64,000 nt of DNA from Arthrobacter agilis (lineage in GTDB: Bacteria; Actinomycetota; Actinomycetes; Actinomycetales; Micrococcaceae). Below, piece after piece: positions 27,811-61,657 of this stretch. The notes beneath the pieces were generated by a model. The model had not been told where the DNA came from and made no database searches. It worked only from the letters and a program-made list of their open reading frames with translations. Made by a program: the position numbers and the translations under genes. The DNA is taken from contig NZ_JAUSXO010000001.1 in NCBI RefSeq assembly GCF_030816075.1, forward strand, positions 620,001-684,000. The letters run 5' to 3'. How positions within the stretch are numbered: position 1 is the first letter of the stretch; every line of letters starts with the position of its first letter.

Positions 27811-27813
27811 CCC

Positions 27814-29836: not shown

Positions 29837-32800
29837 GTGAAGTTCGTGGGTCTCAACCGCAAGAAGCCGCAGCGTTCGCGTGCCGTCTCCGCCGCCGTCG
29901 TCACGACGGTCACCGGCGCCATCGTGGCCGGGGCGCTGCTGTACCCGGGCTTCGCCACCGCCGACGTCGACCTGAACGACGGCGGCGTCTGGGTCACCAA
30001 CGAGACGCTCGGCATGGTGGGCCACCTGAACTACCAGTCCCGCCTGCTCGACGGCGGCTACGCGGCCAACAGCGACGCGTTCGACGTCCAGCAGCTCGCC
30101 TCCACCGTCTTCAACATCAACTCCGACCAGTCCAAGGTCAGCCCCGTCGACATCGCGAACGTGGTCCGCGGCACCGAGGTGCAGCTGCCCGGCGACGCCG
30201 TCCTCGCGATCGGCGGCACCACCGCCACCGTCACCGACCGCTCCACCGGATCGACCTGGATCACCACGACGGCCGCGCTCGCCGCCTTCAACGACCAGGA
30301 GGAGGACCCGGTGTCCAGCGGCCCCGGCTCCGTGGCCGCCGTCTCGTCGTCCGGCCGGGTGGTCGTCGCCGACCCCGACGCCGGCAGCATCAGCAGCTAC
30401 GACGTCCGCGAGGACGGCACCTGGGAGGAGCCGGAGGTCCGCGAGGCACCCGAGCTCGCGAACACCGGGGACCTGCAGGTCGCCGTCGTGGGGGAGGACG
30501 CCGTCGTCCTCGACCCCGCCTCCGGCCTCATGATCCTGCCCGGCGGGAAGACCGTCACCTTCGAGGACACCGAGCGCGCGAAGCTCCAGCAGAGCGGTCC
30601 CGCCGCCGAGACCGTCTCCATCGCCACCGAGACCTCCCTCATCCAGCAGCCGCTCGACGGCTCCGACGCCGTCGTCACGGACATCGGCAACGGGCTCCCG
30701 GCCGCGCCCGTCATGCAGGGGACCTGCCTGCACGCCGCGTGGTCCGGCGCCGAGACCTACCTCCGCGACTGCCTGGACGACGCGAACGACAAGCGCGAGG
30801 ACATCCCCAACCTCGGCGCGCAGTCGGAGCTCGTCTTCCGCGTGAACCGGGACGTCGTGGTCCTCAACGACATCGCCGCGGGCGACGTCTGGCTCGTGCA
30901 GCAGAACCTCGAACTCGTGGACAACTGGGGCGACATCGTCCCGCCCAAGGACGAGTCGGACGAGGAGGACGAGGAGTCCGCGAGCGAGAACCCCGTCAAC
31001 ACCCTGCCGGACCGTTCGGGGGAGAACCGCCCGCCCGTCGCCACCGACGACTCGTTCGGCGCGCGGGCCGGCCGCACCACCATCCTCAACGTCCTCGACA
31101 ACGACACCGACCCGGACGGGGACCTGCTGACGGCCACGCTCGCCGGCGACCAGCCGCCGTCGGGCACCGTGCAGAGCATCTACGACGGCGCCGGCATGCA
31201 GATCGTGGTGCCCGCGGACGCCCCCGTGGGGCGCAGCACCTTCCGGTACGACATCGAGGACGGCCGCGGCGGCAAGGCCGGCGCCGCCGTCACGCTCGAC
31301 GTCCGCGGCCCGGACACCAACGAGGCGCCCCGGGCGAAGCGCCCGACAACCATCCTCGTGGAGCAGGGCCGCAGCGTCAGCCAGAACATCCTCAACACCT
31401 GGGAGGACCCGGACGGCGACGACCTGTTCCTCGTCAGCGCCCAGCCCACACCCGACGGCGACCAGGTGCGCACCCGCTCCGACGGGCTGCTGACCTTCCG
31501 CGACGTCGGCAAGGGCCAGGGTGTGAAGGAGGTGAAGATCGTCGTCTCCGACGGCCTCGAGCAGGTCGAGGGCACCGTGGTCTTCGACGTCCGCGCCAAC
31601 GGCATCCTCCCGCCCGTGGCGAATTTCGACCACTTCACGGCGATCGTGGGCCAGGAGGTGCAGCTGTCCCCGCTGCAGAACGACCTCGACCCGGCCGGCG
31701 GCCAGCTCAGCCTCGCCAAGGCCGAACCCACGGGCAACGACGCCGCGATCACGCCCGACTACGACACCGGCACCATCGCGTTCACCCCGACGCAGGCCGG
31801 CACCGTGTACCTCGAGTACCTCGTGACGAACGGCCCGCAGACTGCGAGCGGACTCATCCGCGTGGACGCGAAGGCCAGCGGCATCGAGGGGGCCCCCGTG
31901 GCCGTCCGCGACGTGGCCCTGCTCCCGCGGAACGGGGACGTCCTGGTGGACGTCCTCGCCAACGACACCGACCCGACCGGCGGCGTGATGGTGGTGCAGT
32001 CCGTGACCACGCCGGAGGGGTCACCCCTCGACGTCGCCCTGCTGGACCACAACATCCTCCGCATCCACGACGTGCGCGGCCTGAACCAGCAGACCACCCT
32101 GAAGTACACCGTCTCCAACGGGGCTGCGTCCGCGACGGGCGAGGTCAGCGTGCTCTCCGTCGCGGGACCGGAGACGCTCCTGCCGCCGCAGGCGACGCCG
32201 GACACCGCGACAGTCCGCGTGGGCGACGTCGTCAACATCCCCGTGCTCGACAACGACACGCACCCCAACGGCGACTCCCTCACCCTGGACCCCGTGCTCG
32301 CGCAGGGCGTGGACCCGGCCGACGGGCGCATGTTCGCCTCCGAGAACGTGCTCCGCTTCGTCGCCGGTCCCACCGCGAAGACCGTCTACGCCATCTATAA
32401 CGTCAGGGACACCTCGGGGCAGGTCGACTCCGCCGAGGTGCGCATCACCGTGAAGGCGCGCGACGACGCCAAGAACACGCAGCCCGTGCCGAAGAACCTC
32501 GAGGGCCGGGTCATCGCCGGCTCCACCGTGCGCATCCCGGTACCGCTGGACGGGATCGACGCCGACGGCGACTCCGTGTTCCTCACCGGCATCGACAGCG
32601 CGCCGAAGCAGGGCGCCGCCGTCCCCGGCACCAACTACATCGACTTCACCGCGTCCGCCACCGGTGCGGGCACCGACTCCTTCACGTACAAGGTGCGGGA
32701 CCGCTTCGGCCTGGAGAACACCGGCACCGTGCAGGTGGGCATCGCTCCCGCCGCCGAGGCCAACCAGAAGCCCATCGCCGTGAACGACGGCGCCATCCTG

Positions 32801-36067: not shown

Positions 36068-39000
36068 TTGAAGCTGTCTGGTCTCACTGCGCGCACGCGC
36101 CGATCCGTCCGCGCCGTCGCGCTGTCGATCGTCGGCGCGCTCGCGGTCACGGGCGCCGTCGTGTACCCCGGCGTGCGCACCGCCGACGTGGACCTCAACG
36201 ACGGCGGCGTCTGGGTCACCAACACCACGCTGGGCCTGGTCGGCCACCTCAACTACCCGTCGCGCACCCTCGACGGCGGGTTCGTGGCGAACAGCAACTC
36301 CTTCGACGTGCACCAGCGCGCCGCCACGGTGTTCTCCGAGAACCGCGACGTCGGCGCCCTGAACCGCGTGGACACCGCGAGCATGACCACCGGGGAGGAA
36401 CAGGCGCTCCCCGAGTACGAGGACGTCCAGCTCGGCAGCCGGTACGCCCTCACCGTCCAGCCCGCCGACGGCACCGTCTGGGTGGGGGAGACCGCGGCCC
36501 TCGCGAGCCTCACCACCGAGGACGCCACACCGCTCGTCGAAGGCGCGCCGGGGACCGTCGCCGCCATCGGCCCGGACGACACCGTCGCCGTCGCCGACCC
36601 GCAGGCCCACACCGTCACCACCTTCGTCCTCGAGGACGGCGAGTATGCGGAACCCGAGACCGCCACCGTCCCCGAGATCACCGGCGACCTGCAGATCACC
36701 CTCGTGGGCCGCACCGCCGTCGTGCTCACCGGCACCGGCGGCCTCATCACGGGTGGTGACGTGCAGCAGCTGCCCGACGCCACCGACGCGGTGCTCCAGC
36801 TCAGCAGCGCCGACGCCGGGCGGGTGGCCGTCGCGACGGCGTCGTCCCTCCTCGAGGTGCCCCTCGACGGCGGCGAGCCGACCGGCACGGCGACCACGAC
36901 GCCCGGCCGGCCCATCGCCCCGGTGCAGCTGAACGGGTGCGTGCACGCCGCCTGGACCGGGTCCGCCGAATACCTCCGGCAGTGCGCCAACGACGCCGAC
37001 GACGACGCGAGCGCGATCCCGTCCCTCGGCGCCCGGTCCGAGCTGGTCTTCCGCACCAACCGCGACGTCGTGATCCTGAACGACCTCGCCGGCGGCAACG
37101 TCTGGCTCGTGCAGCAGGACATGGTGCTCGTGGACAACTGGGACGAGATCATCCCCCCGCCCGAGGAGAGCGACGAGGAGGACCAGGAATCGGCGGACGA
37201 GAACCCGCTGAACACCCTGCCGGACCGCACGGGCGAGAACCGCCCACCCGTTGCCGAGGACGACGCGTTCGGCGTCCGGCCCGGGCGCACCACGCTGCTC
37301 CCGGTGCTCGACAACGACTCCGACCCCGACGGCGACATCCTCACCGTCACGCTCCAGGGGGACGACCCGCCCGTCGGCACGGTCCAGCCCGTCTACGACT
37401 CCACAGGCCTGCAGATCGTCGTCCCCGCGGACGCCGCCCCCGGCCGGCACAGCTTCCAGTACCGCATCGACGACGGCCGCGGCGGCACCGACACCGCGGC
37501 CGTCCAGCTCGACGTGCGCTCCGACACCGCGAACGGCGCGCCGTCCCCCAAGCGGGCCACCCGGCTCACCCTCGAACATGGCGCCACGATCACGGCGAAC
37601 ATCCTGTCCGACTGGGAGGACCCCGACGGCGACGACCTGTTCCTCCGGTCCGCGACGATCGGCACCGAGGGCGACCAGGTGCGCACGCGCGACGACGGGC
37701 AGCTGACCTACCGCGACGCCGGCGGCACGCTCGGCCCGAAGGAGATCACGGTCCAGGTCTCCGACGGGCAGGACACCGCGGAGGGCACCGTGCTCCTCGA
37801 CGTGCAGCCCACGGGCAACGTGCCGCCGCAGGCGAACTCCGACCACATCACCGTCGCCGCGGGACAGGACGTCGTCGTCGCCCCGCTGAAGAACGACCTC
37901 GACCCGAGCGGGCGGGGCCTCCGCCTGACGCAGGTCACGCCTCCCGAGACCGCGACCGTCACCCCCGACTACGAACTCGGGACCTTCACCTTCTCCTCGG
38001 CCGTCCCCGGCACCGTCTACGTGACGTACGTCGTCGCCAACGGACCGGCGACCGCCGAGGCGCTCGTCCGGGTCGACGTCACCCCCGAGGGCGGCGCGCC
38101 CGGCGACCCCATCGCGGTGCGCGACGTCGCGCTGCTGCCCACCGGCGGCCAGACGCTCGTCGACGCCCTCGCCAACGACACCGACCCGGGCGGGGGAGTG
38201 CTCGTCCTGCAGTCCGTCGAGCTGCCGCCCAACAGCGAACTGAACGTCGCCGTCCTCGAACACAACATCCTCCGGGTGACGGACGCCCGGGGCCTCCGGA
38301 ACCCCACCACCTTCACCTACACCGTCTCGAACGGGACGAGCAGCGCCACGGGCCAGGTCTCCGTGCTGCCGCTCCCGGCACCGGAGAGGCTCGAACCGCC
38401 ACGCGCCACGGCCGACGACGTGACGGTCCGGGCCGGCGACGTCGCGACCGTGAACGTGCTCGAGAACGACGTGCACCCCGACAACGCCGACCTCGCGCTC
38501 GCGCCCGAGCTCGTGGAACCGCCCAGCGAGGGCAGCGGCCTGATCGCCGTGGCCGGCGACGCCATCCGCTTCAAGGCCGGGACCGCGGCAGGGACGTTCC
38601 ACGCGGTCTACGCCGTCCTCGGCCCCGACGGCCAGAGCGACTCCGCGCAGGTGACCTTCCGGGTGAAGCCCGCGACGGCCGAGAACAACGCCCGCCCGGC
38701 ACCGAAGGCCCTGGAGGCCCGCGCCATCGCGGGCAACCCCACGAGGATCGTGATCCCGCTCGACGGCATCGATCCGGACGGCGATTCCGTCTCGCTCGTC
38801 GGGATCGAGCAGGCTCCGACGAAGGGCACCGCCGTGGTCGGCGCCACCTTCATCGAATACACCGCGGCCGGCGACGTCGCAGGCCAGGACGTCTTCAGCT
38901 ACGTCGTCGAGGACCGCTACGGAGCCCGCTCGACGGCGACCGTCCTCGTCGGGATCGCCCCGCCGTCCGCCGCGAACCAGCCCCCGGTCGCCGTGGACGA

Positions 39001-42000
39001 CTCCATCGCGGTGCAGCCCGACCGCCGGGTCAGCGTCGACGTGCTGAAGAACGACTCCGACCCCGACGGCGACCCGCTGTCCGTGACGCTCGAGGGGCTC
39101 GACCTGCCCGCGGTCCTGCAGGCCGAGATCATCGACCGGAAGCTCTTCTTCGATGCGCCGTCCGAGCCGATCACCACGGCCGTGCCGTACCTCGTCTCCG
39201 ACGGGCGGGGCGGCGACGTCGTCGGGACCGTCCGCATCGAGGTCTCGCCGACCGCCCGCCGGCTCGCACCCGTGGCCTTCGACGACCGCGTGTCCTTCGC
39301 CGACACGCGCGGCCGGACCGCGGTGGACGTCCCGGTGCTCGACAACGACGTGGACCCGGACGGGGCGTTCGACGAGCTGGCCATCACCTTCCCCGAGAAC
39401 ACCGAGGGCGTCTCCGCGGCGGACGGACTCGTCACCGTCACCCTGCAGCAGGACGCCCAGCTCGTCCCGTACCAGGTGACCGACCCGGACGGCCTCAGCT
39501 CCGTGGCCTTCATCCGCGTGCCGGGCCTGCGGGACCAGCGGCCCGCCCTCCGCGACACCGAACCGCTCGAGGTGCAGACCGGCGAGGAACTCCTGCTCGA
39601 CCTCACGGACCTCGTGGTGGTGCGGGAGGGCCGCACGCCCGTCATCACCGAGGACTCCGGGGTCTCGGCGGTCGCCTCCGACGGCGGGGCGCTGGTCCGC
39701 GACGTCTCGACGCTCGCCTTCACCTCGGCACAGGACTACTCCGGCGCCGCGTCGGTGACGTTCGAGGTCACCGACGGCACCTCCGCCGACGACCCGGACG
39801 GGCTCACCTCCGTGCTGACCGTCGGAGTGCGCGTCCTGCCCGATCCGGACAGGAACACGCCCCCCACGCTCACCTCCGGCGGGGTCGAGGTGGAGCAGGA
39901 GGGCTCCGGCACGCTCGACCTGGCAGGCCTCGCCGCCGACGAGGACCCGCAGGACAGCGACAGGCTGACCTTCTCCCTCGTCGGTGACACGCCGGCAGGG
40001 CTGAGCGCCCGTCTGGACGGGTCGGTGCTCGAGGTGGGTTCCGCCGACGCCCCCGCCGGGACGCGCGCGGCCCTCCGCGTCGCCGTGACGGACCCGCGGG
40101 GCGGACGCGCCGAGGCGATCGTGGACGCTGTCGTCGTCTCCTCCCGCCGTCCGCTCGCCGTGGCGAACGACGACGTGCTCGGCGACGCCGCGCAGGGCGA
40201 GACCGTGACGGTGCCCGTCCTCGCGAACGACACCAATCCCTTCCCCGAGACGCCGCTCCAACTGCTCGACGCCGAGGTGGAGACGGGCACCGGATCCGCC
40301 TCCGTGGTGGGCTCCGAGGTCAGCGTAACCCCGGGGGAGGACTTCGTGGGCACCCTGGTGGTGCGCTACCGCGTGGCCGACAGCACCCGGGCCGCCGACC
40401 GGCAGGTGGACGGGCGCATCCGGCTGACCGTCCGCGGACGCCCCGAGACCCCCTCGGCGCCCTTCGTGGTGGAGGTACGGAACCGCACGGCGGTCCTCGA
40501 GTGGGATCCTCCCGCCGCCAACGGCGCACCGATCACGGGCTACACCGTGCAGGGCACCGGCGGCTTCAGCCAGGCCTGCCCGTCCACGACCTGCACCCTC
40601 ACGCCGCTGACCAACAACGTCGAGTACACCTTCACGGTGACGGCCACCAACGAGGTGGGGGAGTCGGACCCGTCCGCGGCGTCACCCGTCGCCCGCCCCG
40701 ACGAGAAGCCCTCCACGCCCGAGGCACCGGCCCTCACCTTCGGGGACGGCTCCCTCGCCGTGCAGTGGAGCGTGCCGCCCACCGAGGGGTCCCCGGTGGA
40801 GAGCTACGACCTCGAGATCTCGCCGGCACCGCCCGGCGGCGGTGCCCTGAAGGCGGGCGTGCAGGGGACGTCGCTTGAATGGAGCGGCCTCGCCAACGGC
40901 ACGCCGTACCAGGTCCGCGTCCGCGCCTACAACAGGGCTCCGGACCCCTCCGAGTACAGCGCGTACTCGGCCCCCGAGATCCCCGCCGGAGCCCCGGCCA
41001 CGCCGGCGGCACCGGTCTCCGCCCTCGGCTCCCGGGGCGGTGAGGCCAACTCCGTGATGAACGTGTCGTGGACCGCCCCGGCCGGCAACGGCGCCGAGAT
41101 CCAGGGCTACACCCTGACCACGCTGCAGAACGGGCAGGCCGTCACCAGCACCGAACTCTCCGGCTCGCAGACCTCCTCCCCGGTCACCGTCGCCAACTCC
41201 GAGGCCCCCTACAGCTTCACCGTCACGGCGACCAACAAGGCCGGCGTCTCCGGGACGAGCCCGGCCTCCGCGCCGCGGCAGGCCTCCGGGGCGCCCGGGG
41301 CCGTGCCCGGGGTCTCCGCGAAGGAGGGCGATCGTTCCATCACGGTGGCCTACGGCGAGGCCGCCCGCAACGGGGCGACGCCCGGGCAGCTGCGCTACGA
41401 GTACAGCCTCGGCGGCGGCTGGCGGGCGGTGCCGGGCGACCGCGTGATCCGTGACGGCATCGCCAACGGGACCACCTACCGCGTGACCCTGCGGGCCGTG
41501 AACACCGCGGACGGGCAGGTGCTGCCCGGACCGGAGGCGCAGTCCGACGCCGTCGTCCCCTACGGCGCGCCCAATGCTCCCGGCGTGCAGGCCCAGGCGA
41601 ACGGGATGTCCGTCCGCTTCACGGTCACCGCACCGTCCTCCAACGGACGGGAGATCACCGGCTTCGACTACACGACGTCGGACGGCCAGGCCGGGAGCCT
41701 CGGACCGGCCGGAGGATCGATCGACAAGGGCGATTCGGCGAACACCTCCTGGAGCATCCGGGTGACCACGCGCGACTCCGCCGGACAGCGGTCCGGCGAG
41801 GCCACCGCGCAGGCCGGCACGGCGCCCACCACCATGGACATCGGCAAGGGACCGCGGAACCCCTCGATCACCTCCGAAGACACCTACTGGGAGATGTTCC
41901 GCGTGAACAACTTCCCCGCCGGCCCGCACCGGGTGAGCTGCTACGCGGACCAGACGAACGGCGGCACCAGGGCGTACGCCAGCGGCATCGACGACTTCCC

Positions 42001-51449: not shown

Positions 51450-53155
51450 GCACCCGCCGGGCCGCCGCGCCCCCGCCCTCGATCCCCGGGTTCCGCTACG
51501 TGAGCCTGCTGGGCTCCGGCGGCTTCGCGGACGTCTACCTCTACGAGCAGGACAGGCCGCGCCGCCAGGTCGCCGTCAAGGTGCTCATCTCCGATCTCAG
51601 GACGGAGGGCGCCCGCCGGGCGTTCGAGTCCGAGGCCAACCTCATGGCCCAGCTGTCCTCCCACCCGTACATCGTGACGATCTACGAGGCGGACACCACG
51701 GCCGAGGGCCACTCGTACCTCGCCATGGAGTACTGCTCGCGGCCGAGCCTGGACATCCGCTACCGGCGCGCACGCCTGTCCGTCGCGGAGACACTGACCA
51801 TCGGCATCCAGGTCGCGTCCGCCGTCGAGTCCGCGCACCGCGCCGGGATCGCGCACCGCGACATCAAGCCCGCGAACATCCTCGTGACGGACTACAACCG
51901 GCCCGCCCTGACCGACTTCGGGATCTCCGGCACCATGGACACCAGCGGCACGGACGAGGACCAGGGCATGTCCATCCCGTGGTCCCCGCCCGAGGCGTTC
52001 CACGGGGGAGGGCTCGACGGCGTCAAGGTGGACGTCTGGGCGCTCGGCGCCACGGTCTACACGCTGCTCGCCGGGCGCTCGCCGTTCGTGTTCCCCGGCA
52101 TGGACAACTCCCAGGCCGCGCTGATGGACCGTATCGCCACCATGCCGCTGCAGCGCACCGGACGCGAGGACGTACCCGACTCCCTGGAACTGGCCCTGGC
52201 CACGGCGATGTCCAAACTGCCGGGCTCCCGCTTCGAGTCCGCCTACTCGTTCGCCCTGACGCTCCAGCGCATCCAGACCGAGCTCGGCTACTCGGTGACG
52301 CCGTTCGAGGTGCTCGACGACGCCCCGCAGCCGGACGCGGAGGAGGACGGCGGCGCCGAGGAGACGCGCGTGCGGCGCGTGGTGTCCATCGATCCGGAGT
52401 CCACGACCTTCGGACCCACGTTCCCCAACGCGCCCTTCCCGGAGCGCGACGCCACGGGCCGCACCGGTCGGCCCCGGCCGGCCGGCGGCGCCGCCCTCGG
52501 CGAGGCCACCGGCCGCAGGGTCGGGTCCAGCGTGCCGGCGGCGTCGGGCGTCCTGCCCGCTCCCGCGCCGGCAGCCGTCCCGGTCGCCCCCGCCGACGCG
52601 GGCTGGGGGGAACGCACCGTCCTGCGGGGGGCGGGGACCGCCACCGAGGACCCACTGCCCCTGGACACCACGATGCGCCGCCCGGCGGCGGCCGGTGCCA
52701 CCGCCGCCGAGGCGCCCGGGGCGACCGCCGCGCCGGCCCGACGGCGGCTCCCGCTGCTGATCGGCGCGGCGGCGCTCGTGGTGCTCGGCACCGTCAGCGG
52801 AGCGGCCGTCGTGTTCGGTGGGGGGTCCGAGGAGAAGGAGCCACCCGTGGGGCTGACCCAGCCGCCGTCGGATCCCATGGCGGGCCTCGAAGGCAACGTC
52901 CCGGCACCCGAGGGCCTCACCGGCGCGCCGCAGGGCAACGACATCGCGTTCAGCTGGACCAACCCGGACCCGCAGGACGGCGACCTCTACCGCTTCCGTA
53001 CCGTCACCGTGCAGGAGACGGGCGAATGGGTGAGGACGCTGCAGCTCACGGCCGCGGTGCAGGCCAGCCCGTCCGGCACCACCTGCATTGAGGTGCAGCT
53101 CGTGCGCAGCAACGGGCCCGCCTCGGAGCCCGTCCGCCGCTGCTATCCGCACTAG
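51446..53155 (+). CDS. membrane Ser/Thr protein kinase (PknB-type)
   Basis: 569 residues. The kinase domain spans about 14-285 with LLGSGGFADVYLYEQ (glycine loop), VAVKVL (catalytic Lys about 44), HRDIKPANIL (about 137-146) and TDFGIS; all catalytic residues are present. A disordered juxtamembrane linker rich in Thr and Ala carries possible autophosphorylation sites such as EETRVRR. One membrane helix (about 434-456) precedes an extracellular FN3-like domain with two cysteines. The GTG at 51446 overlaps the FHA gene stop. It is likely the signal input of the secretion-like cluster. Confidence 0.92.
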   Translation: MSTRRAAAPPPSIPGFRYVSLLGSGGFADVYLYEQDRPRRQVAVKVLISDLRTEGARRAFESEANLMAQLSSHPYIVTIYEADTTAEGHSYLAMEYCSRPSLDIRYRRARLSVAETLTIGIQVASAVESAHRAGIAHRDIKPANILVTDYNRPALTDFGISGTMDTSGTDEDQGMSIPWSPPEAFHGGGLDGVKVDVWALGATVYTLLAGRSPFVFPGMDNSQAALMDRIATMPLQRTGREDVPDSLELALATAMSKLPGSRFESAYSFALTLQRIQTELGYSVTPFEVLDDAPQPDAEEDGGAEETRVRRVVSIDPESTTFGPTFPNAPFPERDATGRTGRPRPAGGAALGEATGRRVGSSVPAASGVLPAPAPAAVPVAPADAGWGERTVLRGAGTATEDPLPLDTTMRRPAAAGATAAEAPGATAAPARRRLPLLIGAAALVVLGTVSGAAVVFGGGSEEKEPPVGLTQPPSDPMAGLEGNVPAPEGLTGAPQGNDIAFSWTNPDPQDGDLYRFRTVTVQETGEWVRTLQLTAAVQASPSGTTCIEVQLVRSNGPASEPVRRCYPH

Positions 53156-53167: not shown

Positions 53168-53887
53168 TTGGGGGAACTCGCACTGGATTTCTGCGGCGAA
53201 TGGCATGAGCCCGCGGACGACCAGGTCTTCGACATCGGCAGGGAGGGCGACCTCGAGGTCGACGACAACCCGTACCTGCACCGGAAATTCCTGCAGATCG
53301 AGCGCCAGAACGGCATCTGGTGGCTGAGCAACGTCGGCAGCATCCTCTCGGCCACGGTCGCCGACGTCAGCGGCGGCATGCAGGCCTGGGTGGCACCCGG
53401 CGCGCGCATCCCGCTCGTCTTCGGCCAGACCCGGGTGGTCTTCACCGCCGGACCGACCACCTACGAGTTCGACGTGCACCTGAAGACGCCCGCGTTCCGG
53501 CAGGAGCGCCGCAGCGGCGACAGCGCGGGGGACACCACCATCGGGCCCGTCCGCTTCACGGACGCGCAGAAGGCCCTGATCGTGGCGCTCGCCGAGCCGA
53601 TGCTGCGCCGTGAGGGCACCGGGTTCAGCGCCATCCCGTCCTCGGCGGAAGCGGCCCGGCGCCTCGGCTGGGCGCTGACGCGCTTCAACCGCAAGCTCGA
53701 CAACGTGTGCGACAAGCTGGACCGGGTGGGCGTCGTGGGCCTGCGCGCCGGCGGCGGGAAACTCGCCACCAACCGGCGTGCCCGCCTCGTGGAGCACGCC
53801 ATCACCTCCCACCTCGTCACCTCCGACGACCTCCACCTGCTGGACACCCCCGGCGACGCACTGAAGGGCACCCCCGATGACGATTGA
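53168..53887 (+). CDS. degenerate-FHA protein with possible winged-helix tail
   Basis: 239 residues from a TTG preceded by AGGAGAGG. Residues about 1-105 resemble an FHA fold (FDIGREGDLEVDDNP, then LHRKFLQI and LSNVGS), but the Ser/His and Asn that bind phosphothreonine are not preserved. Residues about 125-235 form a helical domain: TDAQKALIVALAEPML, then IPSSAEAARRLGWALTRFNRK, then KLATNRRARLVEHAI, a layout like a winged helix-turn-helix. It could be a DNA-binding regulator of this cluster, or a structural FHA-like adaptor. It sits 12 bases after the kinase gene and 9 bases before the EccC-like gene. Confidence 0.72.
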   Translation: MGELALDFCGEWHEPADDQVFDIGREGDLEVDDNPYLHRKFLQIERQNGIWWLSNVGSILSATVADVSGGMQAWVAPGARIPLVFGQTRVVFTAGPTTYEFDVHLKTPAFRQERRSGDSAGDTTIGPVRFTDAQKALIVALAEPMLRREGTGFSAIPSSAEAARRLGWALTRFNRKLDNVCDKLDRVGVVGLRAGGGKLATNRRARLVEHAITSHLVTSDDLHLLDTPGDALKGTPDDD

Positions 53888-53896: not shown

Positions 53897-56800
53897 ATGA
53901 AGCTTCGCCTGACCCTCCGGCGCGAGCCGGAACCGGCCAAGGACCTCGCCGTCACCGTGGACGGCCTCGCGACCGTCAGCGACGTGGCCCGGGAGCTCTA
54001 CGCCTCCGACCCCGGGCGAGCGGGCGCCGCCCTGCCTCCCGGCCTCTCCCTGACGGTGGACGAGTCCTACGTGGCCGGCGGCATGCGCGGCCGCACCCTG
54101 GACCCGGACCGGAGCCTGTTCGAATCGGGGCTGCGCCCCGGCTCCACGGTGACCCTCACGCAGGTCAGCGACCAGTTCGACGTGCCGGGCCAGGACCGCG
54201 GACCGTCGGTGGCGACGCTGCGCGTCCTCGCGGGACCCGATGCGGGCAAGGAGTTCTCCCTGCCCGTCGGCGCCAGCTACCTCGGCCGCGACCGCAACGC
54301 CGACATCCGCTTCTCGGACCCCATGATGTCCAAGCGGCACGCGCGCATCAACATTGCGGACACCATCGAGATCATCGACACGAACTCGGCGAACGGCCTG
54401 CTGATGGGCGGCACGAGGGTCAACCGGGCCACGCTGACGTCCGCGGACGAGGTGGCACTGGGGGACACGACCATCAGCGTCGTCTCCCTCGGCCGGGCCG
54501 GCGCCGGGGAATCCACCAACCCGCTCGTCGAGTTCAACCGCTCGCCGCGGGTGGTGCCGTCGTTCGAGGTGGCGCCGAAGACGCCGCCGGCCGGGCCCAA
54601 ACGCCCGCAGCCCCAACGCTTCCCGTACATCATGATGGCGGCGCCCCTGCTCATGGGCATGGTCATGTTCGCCGTCACGCGCAGCCCCTTCAGTGCGCTG
54701 TTCGCGCTCATGATGCCGCTCATCCTCGTGGCCAACTACTTCGACCAGCGCGGCACGGCACGCCGGAGCTTCCGGGAGGCGGTGGAGCAGTACACGCAGG
54801 CCATGGCGTTCTTCCGGAAGGACATGGACCGCCTGCAGCGCGTCGAGCGCGCCGTGCGCCACGCGGAGGCCCCCTCGGTCGCGGACACCGTCGACTCCAT
54901 CTACAAGCTCGGCCCGCTGCTGTGGACGCACCGGCCCGAGCACGCCTCCTTCCTGACGCTGCGCTTCGGCACCGGGACGGCGCCGTCGCGGGTCGAGATC
55001 CGGGAGGGCTCGAGCAACGACACCCTGGCCGAGTACGCGGAGGAGATCGCCAGGGTCGTCGAGCAGTACGCGACCATCGACGACGTCCCCATCGTCGCGA
55101 ACTTCCGCCTCTCCGGCGCGCTGGGGCTGGCAGGCCCCCGCGGGACCGTCGACGACGTCGCCCGCGGCCTCGTCACCCAGGCCATCGGCCTGCATTCCCC
55201 GGCGGAGCTCGTGCTGACGTCCCTCACCTCGGTGGGCTCGAAGGCGCGCTGGGGCTGGCTGCAGTGGCTGCCGCACGCCGGTTCGGTCCACAGCCCGCTC
55301 GCGGGCGACCACCTCGCCGCCGGTCCCGCCGCCGGCGCCGCCCTGCTGTCCCAGCTCGAGGACCTCATCGCGGCCCGCTCGGGCCGCCGGTCCGGTGCCG
55401 CCCTGCGCGGCAGGCTCGAACTCAAGGACGTCGAACTGCCGGCACCCCTGGTGCCGAGCGTGCTGGTGGTGGTCGAGGACGACGCCCCGGTGGACCGCGC
55501 CCGCCTCACGCGCGTCGCCGAACTGGGCGCCGACGTCGGCGTCCACCTCCTCTGGATCGCCACGTCCGTGCCGGCCCTGCCGGCCGCGTGCCGCGACTTC
55601 CTCGCCGTGGACGGCGACGCCGCCAACGTCTCCGGGCAGGTCCGCCTCGGCCGGCTCTCCACACCGGTGAGTTGCGAGAGCGTGGACGAGGCGCTCGCCG
55701 GGCAGCTCGCCCGCATGCTCACACCCGTGATCGACGTCGGCACCCCCGTGGACGACGACTCCGACCTGCCGCGGGCGGTGTCCTACGTGACGCTCGCCGG
55801 CCACGACCTCATGGAGGCCACCGCGGCCGTCGCCGACCGCTGGACGGAGAACAACTCCGTGGCCGCGTCGGCGGTCCCGAACCGGAAGCACCAGGGCTCA
55901 CTCCGCGCGCTCGTGGGGTCCAAGGGCGTGGAGCCCATGTACCTGGACCTGAAGACCGAGGGCCCGCACGCCCTCGTGGGCGGGACCACGGGCGCCGGCA
56001 AGTCCGAGTTCCTGCAGTCGTGGGTCCTCGGGATGGCCGCCGCGTACAGTCCCGACCGCCTCACCTTCCTCTTCGTGGACTACAAGGGCGGCGCGGCCTT
56101 CGCGGAGTGCGTCCAGCTCCCGCACACCGTCGGGCTGGTCACCGACCTCTCGCCGCACCTCGTGCGGCGGGCGCTCACCTCGCTGCGCGCCGAACTGCAC
56201 TACCGGGAGCACCTGTTCAACCGCAAGAAGGCCAAGGACCTGCTGGCGATGGAACGCGAGGCGGACCCGGAGACACCGCCGTCGCTCATCATCGTCGTCG
56301 ACGAGTTCGCGGCCCTCGCCCGTGAGGTGCCCGAGTTCGTGGACGGCGTCGTGGACGTCGCGGCCCGCGGGCGGTCCCTCGGCCTGCACCTGATCCTCGC
56401 CACCCAGCGGCCGGCCGGCGTCATCAAGGACAACCTGCGCGCCAACACGAACATGCGCATCGCCCTCCGCATGGCGGACACGGACGACTCCGAGGACATC
56501 CTCGGCGATCCCATGGCCGCCTACTTCAGCCCCACCATCCCCGGCCGCGGCGCCGCCAAGACCGGACCCGGCCGCATCCAGGGGTTCCAGACCGGGTACG
56601 CGGGCGGCTGGACCACGCGCGCCCCCGCCCGCCCCCGCATCGACATCGTCGAGATGGACTTCGGCTCGGGTCCCGCCTGGGAACGCGAGGGCGTCGAGGA
56701 GGTCGAGGAGGTCGGCGGGCCCAACGACATCTCCCGCATCGTGGCGAACGTGTCGCAGGCCGCGATCGAACTGGGGATCAAGCCTCCCCGGAAGCCGTGG

Positions 56801-58333
56801 CTCGCGGAACTCGCGGCGGCCTACGACTTCTCGAAGCTGCCGAACCCCCGCACCGACGAGCGGATGCTCCTCGGCGTCGCCGACGATCCCGCGCACCAGG
56901 CCCAGCCCACGGTGTTCTACGCACCGGACACCGACGGGAACATGGCGTTCCTCGGCGCCGGCGGATCCGGCAAGTCCGCGGCCCTGCGGACCCTCGCGAT
57001 CGGTGCGGCCGTGACCGTGCGCGGCGGCCCCATGCAGGTGTACGGCATCGACTGCGCCTCCAACGGCCTGCAGATGCTGGACCAGCTGCCGCACGTCGGG
57101 GCCATCCTCGACGGCGAGGACTCCGAGCGGATCGGGCGCCTGCTGCGGTACCTGCGCGGCATCATCGACGAACGCGCCGACCGCTTCGCCGAGGTGCGCG
57201 CCGGCACCATCACCGAGTACCGGAAGCTCGCGGGCAAGCCCGACGAGCCGCGCATCCTGCTCCTCGTCGACGGGCTGTCCACCTTCCGCGAGAACTACGA
57301 GTTCAAGGGTTCGGCGCGCCATTTCGAACTGTTCCAGCAGATCGCCACCGACGGGCGACCCATGGGCGTCCACGTGGTGGTGACGGGCGAGCGGACCAAC
57401 GCGCTGCCGCCGTCGCTCGCGGCCTCGATCCAGCGGCGGATCGTCCTGCGTCTCGCCGGCAAGGACGACTACGCCATGCTCGGCGTGCCCAAGGACGTCC
57501 TGTCCGCCACCTCGCCGCCGGGCCGCGGCCTCAGCGACGGCCAGGAGATCCAGCTGGCCATCTTCGGCGGCAACGCCAACCTGGCGCTGCAGGCCCGCGA
57601 GGTGGAGAAGCTCCGCGACGCGATGCTGCGCCAGGGCGTCCCGCAGGCACCGGGGGTGCTGAGCCTTCCCGAGACCATGGACCTCGACGTGCTGCCCATG
57701 GGCGCGCCCGGCAGCCCGGTCATCGGCGTGGACGACTTCAACCTGGAGCCTGCGGCCATCGCGGCACGCGGCGGATTCATGGTCAGCGGGCCTCCCGGCG
57801 CCGGGCGCACGGTGGCCCTCGTGACCCTGGCCGCGGCCCTCCAGCGGTCCTCGCCGCAGACCCGCCGCATCTACTTCGGGTCCCGGAAGTCCTCGATCGC
57901 GTCCCTGCCCGTCTGGGACGAGGCGTACGCCACCCCTGCCGCCGTCCAGCCCGAACTGGCACGCCTGATGGCGCTGACCACGGAGTCGGACGACGCCGTC
58001 GCCTTCTTCATCGAGGGCGTCACCGAGTTCACCGACTCACCCGCCGAGATGGAACTCTCGACCCTCGTGAAGGCGGCCATCAAGGCCAACCAGTGGGTCG
58101 TGGGGGAGGCGGAGACCTCCACGTGGTCGAGCGCCTGGAACCTCGCCGGGCCGTTCAAGTCCGGGCGGCGCGGGCTCCTGCTCAACCCCGGCGAGATCGA
58201 CGGCGACACCCTGCTGAGCACCTCGGTGGGCCGGACGGCCGGGAACAGGTTCATCCCGGGCCGCGGCTACCTCATCGGCCGGGGCAAGGCGTATAAGGTT
58301 CAAGTTGCAACCACGATGGGCGGCGCGTCCTAG
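53897..58333 (+). CDS. EccC-like FtsK/SpoIIIE ATPase with N-terminal FHA domain
   Basis: 1,478 residues, central motor of type VII-like secretion. A ubiquitin-like start (about 1-88) is followed by a canonical FHA domain (about 100-195; YLGRDRNADI, MSKRHARI, NSANG) and two membrane helices (about 243-283). Three ATPase modules follow: D1 with GGTTGAGKS (Lys702) and IIVVDEFAALA; D2 with GAGGSGKS (Lys1026) and LLLVDG; D3 with GPPGAGRT, where Arg1304 replaces the Walker lysine. Only D1 has a full Walker A plus DE pair, as in other EccC proteins. An FHA domain on the motor links it to the kinase. The ATG is 9 bases after the previous stop. Confidence 0.92.
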   Translation: MKLRLTLRREPEPAKDLAVTVDGLATVSDVARELYASDPGRAGAALPPGLSLTVDESYVAGGMRGRTLDPDRSLFESGLRPGSTVTLTQVSDQFDVPGQDRGPSVATLRVLAGPDAGKEFSLPVGASYLGRDRNADIRFSDPMMSKRHARINIADTIEIIDTNSANGLLMGGTRVNRATLTSADEVALGDTTISVVSLGRAGAGESTNPLVEFNRSPRVVPSFEVAPKTPPAGPKRPQPQRFPYIMMAAPLLMGMVMFAVTRSPFSALFALMMPLILVANYFDQRGTARRSFREAVEQYTQAMAFFRKDMDRLQRVERAVRHAEAPSVADTVDSIYKLGPLLWTHRPEHASFLTLRFGTGTAPSRVEIREGSSNDTLAEYAEEIARVVEQYATIDDVPIVANFRLSGALGLAGPRGTVDDVARGLVTQAIGLHSPAELVLTSLTSVGSKARWGWLQWLPHAGSVHSPLAGDHLAAGPAAGAALLSQLEDLIAARSGRRSGAALRGRLELKDVELPAPLVPSVLVVVEDDAPVDRARLTRVAELGADVGVHLLWIATSVPALPAACRDFLAVDGDAANVSGQVRLGRLSTPVSCESVDEALAGQLARMLTPVIDVGTPVDDDSDLPRAVSYVTLAGHDLMEATAAVADRWTENNSVAASAVPNRKHQGSLRALVGSKGVEPMYLDLKTEGPHALVGGTTGAGKSEFLQSWVLGMAAAYSPDRLTFLFVDYKGGAAFAECVQLPHTVGLVTDLSPHLVRRALTSLRAELHYREHLFNRKKAKDLLAMEREADPETPPSLIIVVDEFAALAREVPEFVDGVVDVAARGRSLGLHLILATQRPAGVIKDNLRANTNMRIALRMADTDDSEDILGDPMAAYFSPTIPGRGAAKTGPGRIQGFQTGYAGGWTTRAPARPRIDIVEMDFGSGPAWEREGVEEVEEVGGPNDISRIVANVSQAAIELGIKPPRKPWLAELAAAYDFSKLPNPRTDERMLLGVADDPAHQAQPTVFYAPDTDGNMAFLGAGGSGKSAALRTLAIGAAVTVRGGPMQVYGIDCASNGLQMLDQLPHVGAILDGEDSERIGRLLRYLRGIIDERADRFAEVRAGTITEYRKLAGKPDEPRILLLVDGLSTFRENYEFKGSARHFELFQQIATDGRPMGVHVVVTGERTNALPPSLAASIQRRIVLRLAGKDDYAMLGVPKDVLSATSPPGRGLSDGQEIQLAIFGGNANLALQAREVEKLRDAMLRQGVPQAPGVLSLPETMDLDVLPMGAPGSPVIGVDDFNLEPAAIAARGGFMVSGPPGAGRTVALVTLAAALQRSSPQTRRIYFGSRKSSIASLPVWDEAYATPAAVQPELARLMALTTESDDAVAFFIEGVTEFTDSPAEMELSTLVKAAIKANQWVVGEAETSTWSSAWNLAGPFKSGRRGLLLNPGEIDGDTLLSTSVGRTAGNRFIPGRGYLIGRGKAYKVQVATTMGGAS

Positions 58334-58397: not shown

Positions 58398-58425
58398 CGA
58401 CCGTCCGCGGGGGCTCGCATAGGTT
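58397..58425 (+). promoter_or_regulatory. candidate promoter of the WXG100 gene
   Basis: TCGACC (58397-58402), 17 bases, TAGGTT (58420-58425): acceptable -35 and TANNNT -10 with ideal spacing, directly beside the palindrome. It would give a leader of about 75 bases. Its own promoter fits with high-level expression of a secreted small protein. Confidence 0.45.
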
Positions 58426-58507
58426 GTTGGTAGTTGCCCGGCCGGACAGACCGGCAGGGCGGCCGGTACCGGGAGAACCGGGCCGGCACACTCGAAAGGT
58501 GGGGACA

Positions 58508-58774: not shown

Positions 58775-58871
58775 GTCCCTCCGGTCCCGTCCACCGGCCC
58801 GCAGCCTCGGCTGCGGGCCGGTGGCGTTCCACGCGGGACACCCGAACCTCAGACGAAAGGCGGAGCCTCCA

Positions 58872-60191
58872 GTGGCAGACGCAGCACCTGATCCCATCGT
58901 GGCAAGCCTCCGCAGGGCGCTCGAGGCGAACCCGGACGACGTCGTCCTGAGGCTGCACCTCGCGCAGACGCTCCTCACCGGGGGCGACGCCGCCGGCGCG
59001 ATCGCCGAGGCGAGCGTGGCGCTGCAGGCGGATCCGGGGAACCGGCAGGCGCTCGCAGTGCTCGCGGCGGCAGCGACCGCACTGAGTACGCCCGCCGGAC
59101 CCGCAGCACCCGCCACGCCCGCGGCACCCGCCGGACCCGCTGCTCCTGCCGGGCCCGCTGCTCCTGCCGGGCCCGCTGCACCGGGGGCGTCCAGCGGCTT
59201 CGACTGGGAGCAGGCCGAGCACGAGGTGGGCAGCGCCGTGCCACCACCCTTCGTGGAGCGTGTCCCGCTCGGCCCGACGGCCACGGACGACGCCGACGGG
59301 GCGCCCGTCGAGGTCGCCCGCGACGCGGTGACGCTGTCCGACGTCGGCGGCCTCGACGACGTGAAGCGCCGGCTCGAGGAGTCCTTCCTGGCCCCGATGC
59401 GCAACGCCGACGTCGCGCGGGCCTTCGGCAAGTCGCTGCGCGGCGGGCTGCTGCTGTACGGGCCGCCGGGCTGCGGCAAGACGTTCCTCGCACGGGCCGT
59501 CGCCGGCGAACTGGGCGCGACGTTCATGTCGGTGTCCATGACCGACATCATCGGGGCCTACATGGGCGAGACCCAGCAGAACCTGAAGCGCGTCTTCGAC
59601 ACGGCCCGCGCCCAGGCGCCCACGGTCCTCTTCATCGACGAGATCGATTCCATCGGCATGCGGCGCGGCTCCATGGCGGGCGGCGGTGCGGGCTGGCTGC
59701 GGCAGATGGTCAACGAGCTGCTGATGCAGCTCGATTCCATGAGCGGCGACAATGACGGCCTGTACGTGCTGGCGGCGACCAACAACCCCTGGGACCTCGA
59801 CGAGGCACTCCTGCGGCCCGGCCGGCTGGACCGCTCCATCCTCGTGAGCCCTCCGGACACCGGCGCGCGCGCCTCCATCCTGCGCCATCACCTCAGGGAC
59901 CGGCCCATCGCCGGCATCGACGTCGAGCACCTCGCCGCGGTGACCGACGGGTTCTCGGGGGCCGACCTCGAACACGTGGCCGTCACCGCCGCGGAGAAGG
60001 CCATGATGCAGTCCATCGCGCAGGGCGCGATCAGCCCCATCACGATGGAGCACCTCGGCGCCGCCCTGCGCGAGATCAGGCCGAGCACCGCCGCATGGCT
60101 CGAATCGGCCCGCAACGTGGTGCGGTTCTCCAACGCGAACGGCCGCTACGACGACCTCGCGGCCCTGCTCGACGGGAAGAAGCGCCGGTGA
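58872..60191 (+). CDS. TPR/AAA+ ATPase in EccA-like position
   Basis: 439 residues from a GTG at 58872 with AAAGGCGGAG upstream. The N-terminal 60 residues hold one or two TPR motifs (LRRALEANPDDVVLRLHLAQ). A Pro/Ala/Gly linker made of short repeats follows (about 75-115). A single AAA+ module spans about 150-420: GPPGCGKT at 197-204, LFIDEIDSIG near 253, arginine finger region RPGRLDRSIL. TPR plus AAA+ recalls EccA, the cytosolic ATPase of mycobacterial systems, though the AAA+ module is closer to the Cdc48/FtsH group. The next gene overlaps by GTGA. Confidence 0.87.
   Translation: MADAAPDPIVASLRRALEANPDDVVLRLHLAQTLLTGGDAAGAIAEASVALQADPGNRQALAVLAAAATALSTPAGPAAPATPAAPAGPAAPAGPAAPAGPAAPGASSGFDWEQAEHEVGSAVPPPFVERVPLGPTATDDADGAPVEVARDAVTLSDVGGLDDVKRRLEESFLAPMRNADVARAFGKSLRGGLLLYGPPGCGKTFLARAVAGELGATFMSVSMTDIIGAYMGETQQNLKRVFDTARAQAPTVLFIDEIDSIGMRRGSMAGGGAGWLRQMVNELLMQLDSMSGDNDGLYVLAATNNPWDLDEALLRPGRLDRSILVSPPDTGARASILRHHLRDRPIAGIDVEHLAAVTDGFSGADLEHVAVTAAEKAMMQSIAQGAISPITMEHLGAALREIRPSTAAWLESARNVVRFSNANGRYDDLAALLDGKKRR
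59101..59181 (+). repeat. short in-frame tandem repeats (about 18 bp) in the AAA+ gene linker
   Basis: GCTGCTCCTGCCGGGCCC is repeated in tandem (about 59140-59175), with looser copies before and after. They encode AAPAGP units of a flexible linker. Copy number could vary without breaking the frame. Confidence 0.6.
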
Positions 60192-61657
60192 GCGAGGTCG
60201 TCGACCTCGACGTCCTGGCCAACCGCTTCGAGATCCTGGCGGCCCAGCAGCGCGGCGGCGACGCGGTCGACCTGCTGGAGGGGCAGGCGGCGTACCACGG
60301 GGACGAACCCCTCTACTGGGCGCTCCTCGGACGGGCGTTCGCGATGGACCAGCGGTTCGTCGACGCCGAACACGCCGGGCGCCGGGCCGTGGAGCTCGAG
60401 CCGAACGCGGCCGGCACGCAGATCACCCTGCTGCTCGCGCTCCTCGGACAGCGCCGGAGCGACGAGGCCGTGGCTCTCGCCTGGTCCGTCGTCGAACAGC
60501 ACGCCGAGGAGCCCGACGCCCACTACTGGCTGAGCCAGGCACTCCTCGCGCGCCGGCGCGACCACCAGGACCTCGTCGTCGCCCACCAGGCCGCCCGCCA
60601 CGCGCTCTCCCTGAAAGCCGACGCCGGGGCCTTCACGCAGGCGGCGCAGACCGCGTCGCTGCTCGACGACGACGGCGAGGCCCGGGCGCTGCTGGCCGCC
60701 GGCCTCGCCCAGTTCCCCCAGGACCGCGAGCTCCTCCTGCTCAGCGGGCGGATCAAGGGCGGGGAAAGGGTCGTGGGATCACGCGAGGAGCTCGTCGGCG
60801 GGATCCTCAGGATGAGCCCCCTGGATGCCTCCGCGGAGGCGGACCTCGCCTCGAGCCCGCTGCGCTGGGTCCGCGGGCGCCTCTTCCTCCTCTGGTACCA
60901 CGTCCTGGCGTTCGCGCTCCTGGCGGTCGTCCTGCTGCCGGTGCCCGTGCTGGTCGCCGTCGCCCTGGTGGGGGCCGGGGTCCATGCCGCCCTGATCGTC
61001 AGGAGCTACCGGACGCTGGACGCGGTGCTCCCCGGCGGGTACCTGCGGGAGCAGCTGACGGACCCGGAGCGCGGCAGGAACGGTGCCGCGGCCGGCCTGG
61101 CGGCCGCGGTCCTGGTCCTCGCCGGCACCGTCCTCGCCGCCCTCCACCCGGAGCCCGGCCCCGGCGTCGGTGACGGCATCCTCGTCCTGGCCGCCGTCGT
61201 CCTCGCCGCTGGGCTCCTGGCGGTGGAGCGGGCGCTGGCACGCCTCTCCGTGGCGGGCCGGTCCGAGGAGCGCCGGCGGCAGGACTACCACCTCATCCGC
61301 TTCGGGGACAACGCGTCCTCCTACCGGCGCTACTGGCTGGCCGCCCTCGCCGGGATCGTCGCGGTGATGATCACGGCCAACACCGGGGGTGACGCGACGG
61401 CCGGAGCCGGGATGCTCACCGTCGGGATCCTGTGGACCGTCAAGACCCTGGACCTGCTGGTCCATTCGCGGGCGGTGGCCGGCGGCGAGAACCCGTGGGT
61501 GACGGGCGCCGCGCTCAGCCGGGCCGGGCGGGGCCGGCAGGCCGTCCGGGGCAGGCTCCTCGGCGCCCGGTTCCTGCTGGTCATGCTCTTCGTGTGCTTC
61601 TTCACCTGCTCCCTCGGGTTCGGCATCCTCATCGGCGGGTTCATCGAGGGCGCCTAG
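60188..61657 (+). CDS. TPR-containing polytopic membrane protein
   Basis: 489 residues from a GTG overlapping the AAA+ stop. The first 220 residues are TPR-like helices (LLEGQAAYHGDEPLYWALLGRAF, split here by helix; AGRRAVELEPNAAGT). About six to seven membrane helices follow from about 238 to the C-terminus (FLLWYHVLAFALLAVVLLPV through FGILIGGFIEG). Not recognised as EccB, EccD or EccE. Gene order makes it a candidate channel or membrane platform for the WXG100 system. Confidence 0.75.
   Translation: MSEVVDLDVLANRFEILAAQQRGGDAVDLLEGQAAYHGDEPLYWALLGRAFAMDQRFVDAEHAGRRAVELEPNAAGTQITLLLALLGQRRSDEAVALAWSVVEQHAEEPDAHYWLSQALLARRRDHQDLVVAHQAARHALSLKADAGAFTQAAQTASLLDDDGEARALLAAGLAQFPQDRELLLLSGRIKGGERVVGSREELVGGILRMSPLDASAEADLASSPLRWVRGRLFLLWYHVLAFALLAVVLLPVPVLVAVALVGAGVHAALIVRSYRTLDAVLPGGYLREQLTDPERGRNGAAAGLAAAVLVLAGTVLAALHPEPGPGVGDGILVLAAVVLAAGLLAVERALARLSVAGRSEERRRQDYHLIRFGDNASSYRRYWLAALAGIVAVMITANTGGDATAGAGMLTVGILWTVKTLDLLVHSRAVAGGENPWVTGAALSRAGRGRQAVRGRLLGARFLLVMLFVCFFTCSLGFGILIGGFIEGA

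Follow-up and report, generated by a model that had tools for sequence, protein, structure and literature searches.

What does a type VII-like motor do when it is encoded amid a phosphothreonine signalling set and giant surface proteins, with no recognisable EccB or EccD at its side? This question is raised by Arthrobacter agilis, in whose single-contig genome (C1; 3,857,229 bases, given as 100% complete) we analysed the stretch C1:620001-684000, hereafter the window (64,000 nucleotides). Positions 29837-58774 of the window hold a one-direction cluster on the + strand, and Pfam matches and open frames bear out what an earlier note, made from the sequence alone, had listed there: an EccC-like motor, a WXG100 protein, a MoxR-DUF58-transglutaminase trio, a membrane kinase, a PP2C phosphatase and Ig/FN3 giants, every part named being present. 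That note did not remark that the remaining genes of the cluster correspond to the PFNA operon of bifidobacteria. By its gene content, the cluster is the PFNA gene set adjoining a type VII motor, and in our view the locus rather likely encodes a type VII-like secretion system of an unnamed Micrococcales subtype, composed of a motor module and a PFNA module. The system is probably regulated by phosphothreonine. No name for such a subtype was found in the open-licence PubMed Central (PMC) literature.

The bifidobacterial PFNA operon is given as pkb2, fn3, aaa-atp, duf58, tgm, prpC and fha, with the kinase gene first (PMC8430577). Homologues of pkb2, fn3, aaa-atp, duf58 and tgm are likewise clustered in the window, in another order: fn3 comes first here and the kinase last of the module, and in three relatives (G278, G023 and G066) the kinase does precede fn3. 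The FN3 protein of B. longum is described as 1,994 amino acids (aa) long, its FN3 domains spanning residues 1494-1581 and 1586-1671 (PMC10688814), and the best fn3 stretch of the window falls at 1496-1572 of its longest frame. Both giants of the window match Big_9 (E 1.1e-77 and 3e-91) and fn3 (E 1.1e-31 and 9.1e-31) in Pfam; they have an N-terminal hydrophobic segment only, no C-terminal transmembrane (TM) segment being found in them and no LPXTG motif in Ig/FN3-1. When the ~350-aa Ig/FN3 head was compared with PDB profiles, the best E was 0.88.

The comparison could be extended to one family of our genome collection, f4, which we take to be the Bifidobacteriaceae because a 16S primer matches f4 only among the genomes tested (3/3 f4 genomes, 0/18 others). 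A homologue of the window's polytopic transglutaminase-type protein, TGM, occurs in 17/21 f4 genomes (E<=1e-4). In all six f4 loci that were fetched the order is kinase-FN3-MoxR-DUF58-TGM, the kinase of one (L225) being detected by tblastn only, and in two of them PP2C comes next. Their FN3 proteins are 28-31% identical to the window's over 1,623-1,697 columns, and the tail of the window's kinase behind its TM segment matches the f4 kinases of L225 and L226, with two cysteines kept in the alignment (18 rows, L224 being poorly aligned). Thus the likeness to the PFNA operon comprises the same gene set, FN3 domains near residue 1,500, a related kinase tail and a TGM that lacks the catalytic cysteine in f4 too. 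The difference is that the published operon, as listed, has no motor or WXG100 (PMC8430577), and the six f4 stretches gave no match to the motor, WXG100 or smFHA, the small FHA protein that precedes the motor in the window. As a separate observation, L224 (G152:C1:534001-554000, reverse strand) has a single 2,187-aa open frame that covers both the FN3 giant and MoxR, a possible fusion.

The linkage of this module to the motor is not confined to the window. A motor search across 297 genomes of the order gave a match at E<=1e-30 in 276/297 and above 1,000 bits in 83/297, own genome included. From the latter, 20 relatives were hand-picked in nine families (f1, f3, f5, f8, f9, f11, f13, f17 and f19; f1 is taken as Micrococcaceae), with ~35 kb examined for each, the G273 stretch being shortened by a contig end. 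Ig/FN3, MoxR, DUF58, TGM, PP2C, FHA2 and smFHA adjoin the motor in 14/20 of them; the kinase is present in all these loci (14/14; in G029 it was missed by tblastn and is present as an intact frame), RDD_FHA in 12/14 (not in G145 and G293) and a match to the window's WXG100 in 9/14. The gene order is the window's except in G278, G023 and G066, where it runs PP2C-FHA2-kinase-smFHA-Ig/FN3-MoxR-DUF58-TGM-motor. Moreover, we inspected 80 named loci, which are the best motor matches and no even sample (the closest motor, from Arthrobacter sp. H5, is 81% identical). TGM, RDD_FHA, PP2C, FHA2, kinase and smFHA are each found in 71/71 of those with at least 9.9 kb upstream, and DUF58 in 63/71, the fetched flank of the 8 misses stopping within or near TGM. 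The comparison of gene order in other Micrococcales that the earlier note had proposed therefore finds module and motor linked, in 14/20 and 71/71 loci, and conservation of the cluster, as far as aligned loci can tell, is not due to chance. In the window itself the junctions from DUF58 to the kinase are five consecutive 4-base overlaps, and the next two, which lead to the motor, are gaps of 12 and 9 bases; this is consistent with a single transcript. Separately, the giant Ig/FN3 protein of G066 (L069, L089) has shrunk to 419 aa in an otherwise full cluster, which also holds a repeated pair of WXG100-type genes.

Table 1. Features of the locus, in window positions; gene starts were chosen among in-frame codons.
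Feature	Position	Strand	Evidence or remark
Giant Ig/FN3 protein 1 (Ig/FN3-1), 2,038 aa	29837..35953	+	N-terminal hydrophobic segment, ~350-aa head, Big_9 Ig repeats, FN3 domains
Giant Ig/FN3 protein 2 (Ig/FN3-2), 2,020 aa, TTG start	36068..42130	+	50% identity to protein 1
MoxR AAA+ ATPase (PFNA aaa-atp)	42199..43170	+	Pfam AAA_3 E 4.5e-63
DUF58 protein (PFNA duf58), two TM segments	43225..44628	+	Pfam DUF58 E 5.1e-13
TgpA-type polytopic pseudo-transglutaminase TGM (PFNA tgm)	44625..47054	+	Transglut_core E 7.3e-18, TgpA_N E 1.1e-13
Asp508 codon of TGM, aligned with catalytic Cys of TgpA	46146..46148	+	
Zinc ribbon-RDD-FHA membrane protein (RDD_FHA)	47051..48529	+	RDD E 1.6e-18; FHA 22.3 bits (cut-off 20.7)
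PP2C phosphatase (PFNA prpC)	48526..49473	+	PP2C_2 E 2.8e-11
FHA2, 659 aa, Cys cluster and C-terminal FHA	49470..51449	+	FHA 24.0 bits (cut-off 20.7)
Membrane Ser/Thr kinase (PFNA pkb2), one TM, extracellular FN3-like tail	51446..53155	+	Pkinase E 4e-40
smFHA, 239 aa, degenerate FHA and conserved C-terminal region	53168..53887	+	GR motif and alignment
EssC/EccC-type motor, 1,478 aa: ubiquitin-like domain (predicted), FHA, 2 TM, three ATPase modules	53897..58333	+	FtsK_SpoIIIE E 4.7e-52, FHA E 4e-11
Motor ubiquitin-like domain, residues 1-95, predicted	53897..54181	+	
Motor FHA domain, residues 109-195	54221..54481	+	
WXG100 protein, 88 aa	58508..58774	+	Pfam and NCBIfam, both below cut-off
TPR-AAA+ ATPase, local extra	58872..60191	+	
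TPR polytopic membrane protein, local extra	60188..61657	+	
ligA	61700-63985		behind TPR-membrane gene

The motor is a membrane ATPase of the EccC/EssC type with several modules, and its NCBIfam scores (EssC TIGR03928 518 bits, EccCa/EccCb 342/308) all lie below the curated cut-offs. The WXG100 protein directly 3' of it scores weakly as well, with 26.1 bits in Pfam (cut-off 27.3) and 30.3 in NCBIfam (cut-off 44.85); both members of the type VII-like pair named in the earlier note are thus present, at scores under the curated thresholds. By motif reading, P-loop and Walker B are both intact in ATPase module 1, and module 3 has Arg in place of the P-loop Lys. The phosphothreonine-site residues of the motor's FHA domain (G130, R131, S145, H148 and N166) are invariant in 30 sequences, which makes binding of phosphothreonine by this domain plausible. 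Of the four FHA modules counted in the earlier note, those of the motor, RDD_FHA and FHA2 retain GR, SxxH and NG, the latter two exceeding the Pfam cut-off; smFHA has no Pfam match at E<=0.1 and keeps GR only, SxxH and NG being lost, and its FHA nature is read from GR and the alignment, while its C-terminal region looks winged helix-like by eye only. The kinase carries HRD and DFG.

A feature of the motor that the earlier note had not recorded is a ubiquitin-like domain fused to its N-terminus. When the whole genome was searched with the EccD profile, which finds EccD at E<=1e-15 in 27/98 genomes of the class, the sole match at E<=1 fell on motor residues 37-93 (E 0.094), and a PDB profile search placed RAD23 and a redesigned ubiquitin on the motor N-terminus at E 0.49-1. 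Alignment by hhalign of the first ~96 residues of 30 motors (the window and 29/80 named loci) with 20 EccD N-terminal domains gave P 1.4e-4 and a probability of 52% over 73 columns. Eight other actinobacterial FHA-motor N-termini, two of them from f4 loci resembling the type VII secretion system (T7SS) subtype T7SSd (8/11 rows used, cut by eye; G086, with no clear start, G211 and G265 omitted), gave P 4e-7 and 93% against EccD, and P 7.5e-11 and 97% against the window-type motors in an unshuffled comparison. Column shuffles against EccD never reached the real score (0/100 per profile; the shuffled eight came no lower than P 0.028, the shuffled window type no lower than 0.0051), and smFHA as a control gave P 0.37 with the window-type motors, 0.16 with the eight and 0.051 with EccD. 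An AlphaFold2 (AF2) model of the 96 residues has the order b-b-a-b-b-a-b (pLDDT 83, pTM 0.73), and a model of 205 residues shows a similar order (pLDDT 81, pTM 0.50). Among solved structures, Foldseek with the 96-residue model placed chain 7b9s_5 of the ESX-5 pore complex, presumably EccD5, at rank 42 (TMq 0.58), and the 50 matches listed are, as we take them, mostly ubiquitin-like folds (Caldiarchaeum ubiquitin, ubiquitin variants, SUMO-like, UBX, TmoB); with the 205-residue model, FHA or FHA-like domains are among the 50 listed. The models show a beta-grasp topology and the profiles a relationship to a known domain of this class, and motor residues 1-95 are predicted to be a ubiquitin-like domain related to that of EccD. 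In our reading, the same domain heads the motors of T7SSd-like loci, and the ubiquitin-like part in these lineages would be fused to the motor. This would contradict what was stated in 2006, namely that in actinobacteria YukD-like domains invariably occur in fusion with a 12-TM domain (Iyer et al.; PMC1779556), and it offers an answer to the puzzle, noted with surprise by Garrett et al. 2024, of a T7SSd that lacks an associated ubiquitin-like protein (PMC11217815).

Is the locus then simply T7SSd, as defined by Garrett et al. 2024? The two share WXG100, an FHA motor with a kept phosphothreonine site, a membrane kinase, a giant Ig protein and, through the f4 T7SSd-like loci, a related ubiquitin-like N-terminal domain of the motor (PMC11217815). 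In fact, two f4 loci hold a kinase, a 147-aa protein, a 1,798-1,799-aa protein, a motor, an FHA-like 171-aa protein and a 93-100-aa WXG100 candidate, a content as in the published T7SSd list. Nonetheless, in a tree of ATPase module 1 (35 rows; the T7SSa stretch G017 has no row, no motor being found there) the two f4 rows belong to a group of seven (100/100), with Streptomyces and Curtobacterium plasmid motors among the rest, and the window's motor lies outside it, in a clade of 18 (91/91). A gene for a small protein with one TM segment, like TsdH, was not seen between 29837 and 58774, and the giants of the window lack the C-terminal TM segment that TsdI has in addition to its Sec signal. Moreover, the window has many more parts: PP2C, MoxR, DUF58, TGM, RDD-FHA and FHA2 are outside the five T7SSd components listed in PMC11217815. 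We therefore regard identity with T7SSd as quite improbable. The same tree sets four T7SSa motors, from EccD-bearing stretches, apart from all others (100/100); it leaves the branching order among motor groups open, uses the f4 loci as stand-ins for the published TsdC and contains long branches at the T7SSa row G374, Enterococcus EssC and an orphan FtsK of the own genome. By this tree the motor lineage is separate from T7SSa and from the T7SSd-like clade, and we place the subtype beside T7SSd and not within it.

The likeness to T7SSa/ESX lies in an FtsK-type motor with three ATPase modules, WXG100 and a ubiquitin-like domain, whereas that domain belongs to EccD in T7SSa and to the motor in the window, where EccB and EccD were not found. 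The motor as the EccC of a T7SSa was rejected on its profile scores, the tree and the EccB/EccD searches, which gave no genuine match. T7SSe resembles the window in having a PPM phosphatase and an extra FHA protein beside the kinase and the FHA motor, and differs in its occurrence in Bacillota, its separate ubiquitin-like TseB and its two WXG100 proteins (PMC11217815). What the earlier note said of non-mycobacterial actinobacterial subtypes with some of these parts agrees with this literature, where systems of kinase, FHA motor and Ig giant are already published as T7SSd/T7SSe (PMC11217815). Two observations on other FHA motors may be added. The own genome encodes a second FHA-FtsK protein of 1,398 aa (C1:2153185-2157381), with no WXG100 match of the genome nearby, and in G150 and G263 (L177, L178) WXG100 pairs and MoxR, joined by DUF58 in L178, lie near FHA motors of a divergent kind.

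The earlier note described the locus as one without EccB, EccD or mycosin in which polytopic proteins replace EccD and EccB as the channel, a view considered here as the TPR polytopic protein and the TPR-AAA+ ATPase taking over from EccD, EccB and EccA. Its first half was examined by the genome-wide profile searches that it had itself suggested, and neither EccB nor EccD was found: EccB had no match at E<=1 in the complete genome, in a search without positive control since no control genome exceeded the cut-off, and the EccD profile gave nothing above its cut-off and, at E<=1, only the motor's own N-terminus (E 0.094). YukD as a separate protein gave two weak matches in the genome, none over the cut-off, and EssA, EssB and EsaA did not turn up in scans of the cluster proteins, the genome not being searched for them. 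As for mycosin, none is encoded in the locus, and the genome's S8 proteases lie elsewhere, below the cut-off; the claim needs the amendment that one of them is an orphan mycosin-like protease (C1:457240-458475, 229.6 bits, cut-off 278.75), and no T7SS gene was recognised by eye in the surrounding 20 kb. A second S8 protein shows two weak mycosin-profile pieces at C1:3686-3687 kb.

The TPR genes do stand directly behind WXG100 and overlap each other, as a replacement for EccD, EccB and EccA would have it. They are in no relative examined: the TPR-membrane gene was found in 0/20 chosen relatives and in 0/70 named loci with 3 kb downstream, and the TPR-AAA+ gene likewise in 0/20 and 0/70, its single match, in G023, reflecting a cross-match of the AAA part to MoxR. 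The TPR-AAA+ protein is also closer to FtsH (203 bits) than to EccA (36 bits), and the only polytopic proteins conserved across the relatives are the TGM type and RDD. A role for the TPR proteins in place of the Ecc parts is thus extremely improbable, and we rejected them as system parts: they are local extras between WXG100 and ligA, and the conserved locus, as compared across relatives, ends at 58774. Of the interpretation in the earlier note, the type VII-like motor, WXG100, the kinase, phosphatase and FHA set and the failure to find EccB or EccD have stood, and the TPR proteins have not.

The MoxR-DUF58-transglutaminase trio had also been put forward, and its genes, domains and order are indeed there; the catalytic cysteine of the transglutaminase is not, a loss that the earlier note had missed. 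The nearest comparison is TgpA (6g49, protein-glutamine gamma-glutamyltransferase, presumably from Pseudomonas), which shares with TGM a TgpA_N membrane part and a transglutaminase core. Its cysteine, which we take to be the catalytic one, aligns with Asp508 of the window's TGM. At this position the 86 matching of 101 sequences have Asp (78), Glu (6) or Gln (2) and never Cys (0/86), whereas the His is kept in 75 and the third-site Asp in 69 of the 86 loci; in the six f4 loci the motif reads GDSEQYA. With the catalytic Cys missing, TGM, to judge from these alignments, cannot work as a cysteine enzyme, and the same would hold for the bifidobacterial 'transglutaminase'.

Several observations weigh against a single type VII-like system under phosphothreonine control, and two of the rival accounts rest on them. 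A long motor match is found in only 3/21 f4 genomes, T7SSd-like and in another cluster, while TGM is in 17/21, so the module works without this motor there; joining the f4 PFNA cluster and the T7SSd-like locus into one was considered and dropped, their kinases being ~14-15 kb apart in G082 and G259 and the two clusters running in opposite directions. Conversely, 6/20 relatives (G253, G220, G067, G280, G083 and G047) have the motor without the module within 35 kb, and these motors fall within the same clade of 18 as the window's. The giants carry a Sec-type N-terminus, and would not need a type VII motor. Perhaps, then, two independent machines share an operon, a PFNA module for the Ig/FN3 surface protein and a motor for WXG100 export, an account that we hold possible though rather unlikely. 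It fits poorly with the tight linkage and overlapping genes in the window, with the 14/20 chosen and 71/71 nearest loci, with the rearranged G278, G023 and G066, which still hold the parts together, and with MoxR, or MoxR and DUF58, near the quite different motors of L177 and L178.

A further set of difficulties concerns WXG100. Counting frames at most 1.5 kb behind the motor in the 94 judgeable loci of 101, a WXG100-like frame is present in 57/94 and missing in 37/94, of which 33/37 are from Arthrobacter, Pseudarthrobacter or Paenarthrobacter; in G071 ligA directly follows the motor. A WXG100 gene occurs in 23/23 further f1 genomes, with or without the motor, and is thus no sign of export on its own. 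Since TGM, the kinase and other module parts are in 71/71 loci, the motor could instead be an envelope-assembly pump for the Ig/FN3 giants or another surface polymer and not a WXG100 exporter. We think this unlikely in view of the 57/94 loci that do have the frame, the 93-100-aa candidate in T7SSd-like loci and the Ig/FN3 proteins of f4 loci without a motor. In addition, long WXG100-headed open frames track the motor: frames of 340-600 aa are found in 8/11 f1 genomes with it (own included) and in 0/13 without it (Fisher P 2.2e-4), with a 340-aa threshold picked after seeing the list, open frames that are not gene lengths, relatives that are not independent, and motor-bearing f1 genomes that tend to be larger. 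The last points against the single system concern its control and its ubiquitin-like domain: the link between phosphorylation and export is one that we infer, the window-type motors reached only 52% against EccD in hhalign, and Foldseek with the 96-residue model returned no match below E 1e-3.

Taking the type VII-like system of two modules as the best account, the following working order is suggested by its parts, by the reported phosphorylation of MoxR by the bifidobacterial kinase Pkb2 (PMC8430577) and by the description of EccD's ubiquitin-like domain as lying on EccC's first ATPase module (PMC11217815); the gating, channel and cargo roles in it are those that we infer. The motor module would consist of the membrane FtsK-type ATPase with its own ubiquitin-like and FHA domains, WXG100 behind it and smFHA in front, and the second module of the kinase, the N-terminally anchored Ig/FN3 giant, MoxR, DUF58, the pseudo-transglutaminase, PP2C and the FHA proteins. 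The kinase may sense an envelope signal and phosphorylate threonines on its partners, on which the FHA domain of the motor would dock, so that the motor is assembled or switched on, and PP2C would reset the switch. The fused ubiquitin-like domain would sit on ATPase module 1, as EccD's does in T7SSa, MoxR and DUF58 might install membrane and surface parts, and the polytopic TGM-type protein would be a membrane scaffold and not an enzyme. The cargo may be WXG100-headed proteins, whose genes often lie outside the locus. In the own genome such a protein (C1:3419410-3420411) has 333 aa and contains a hydrophobic stretch as well as a linker rich in glycine; its candidate cargo locus (C1:3418640-3421010) also encodes an RDD protein and a 257-aa neighbour without a Pfam match.

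More tentatively, and with less than even confidence, we suggest that PFNA arose long ago in actinobacteria as the envelope module of a type VII system switched by phosphothreonine, in which the motor carries the ubiquitin-like regulator seemingly absent from T7SSd, dead transglutaminase scaffolds stand in EccD's place and the Ig/FN3 giant is an outer adhesin or conduit, the bifidobacterial operon being a remnant after loss of the motor. PFNA has been described as bifidobacteria-only and host-directed (PMC10688814), and our loci speak against its being unique to bifidobacteria or evolved for host immune signals. The finding joins two literatures seemingly unaware of each other: 'type VII' does not occur in the PFNA papers PMC8430577, PMC6803598 and PMC10688814, nor do 'PFNA', 'MoxR', 'DUF58', 'transglutaminase', 'Arthrobacter', 'Micrococc' or 'Streptomyces' in PMC11217815, and no on-topic paper on T7SSd with Bifidobacterium and kinase was found in open-licence PMC. 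What appears new, on comparison of genes and profiles, is the PFNA set beside a type VII motor, the motor-fused ubiquitin-like domain, the Cys-less TGM and the separate motor lineage. The type VII field would gain a widespread actinobacterial motor lineage, with free-living strains available for testing phospho-control of a type VII motor.

Some minor observations remain. A 96-aa WXG100 gene of the own genome lies next to a groEL-like gene (C1:45435-45725). Behind the motors of G280, G083 and G047 (L066, L067 and L071) are, as read by eye, WXG100-type genes together with LXG-like genes of 408-448 aa, the module not being in the stretch. No match came from scanning the window for tRNAs and, at the gathering threshold, against Rfam. 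Immediately upstream of Ig/FN3-1, on the + strand at 27811-29663 of the window, are genes for a bPH_2 protein and a class III-type adenylate cyclase; among the 20 relatives, a cyclase lies upstream of the Ig/FN3 gene only in G218 and G071.

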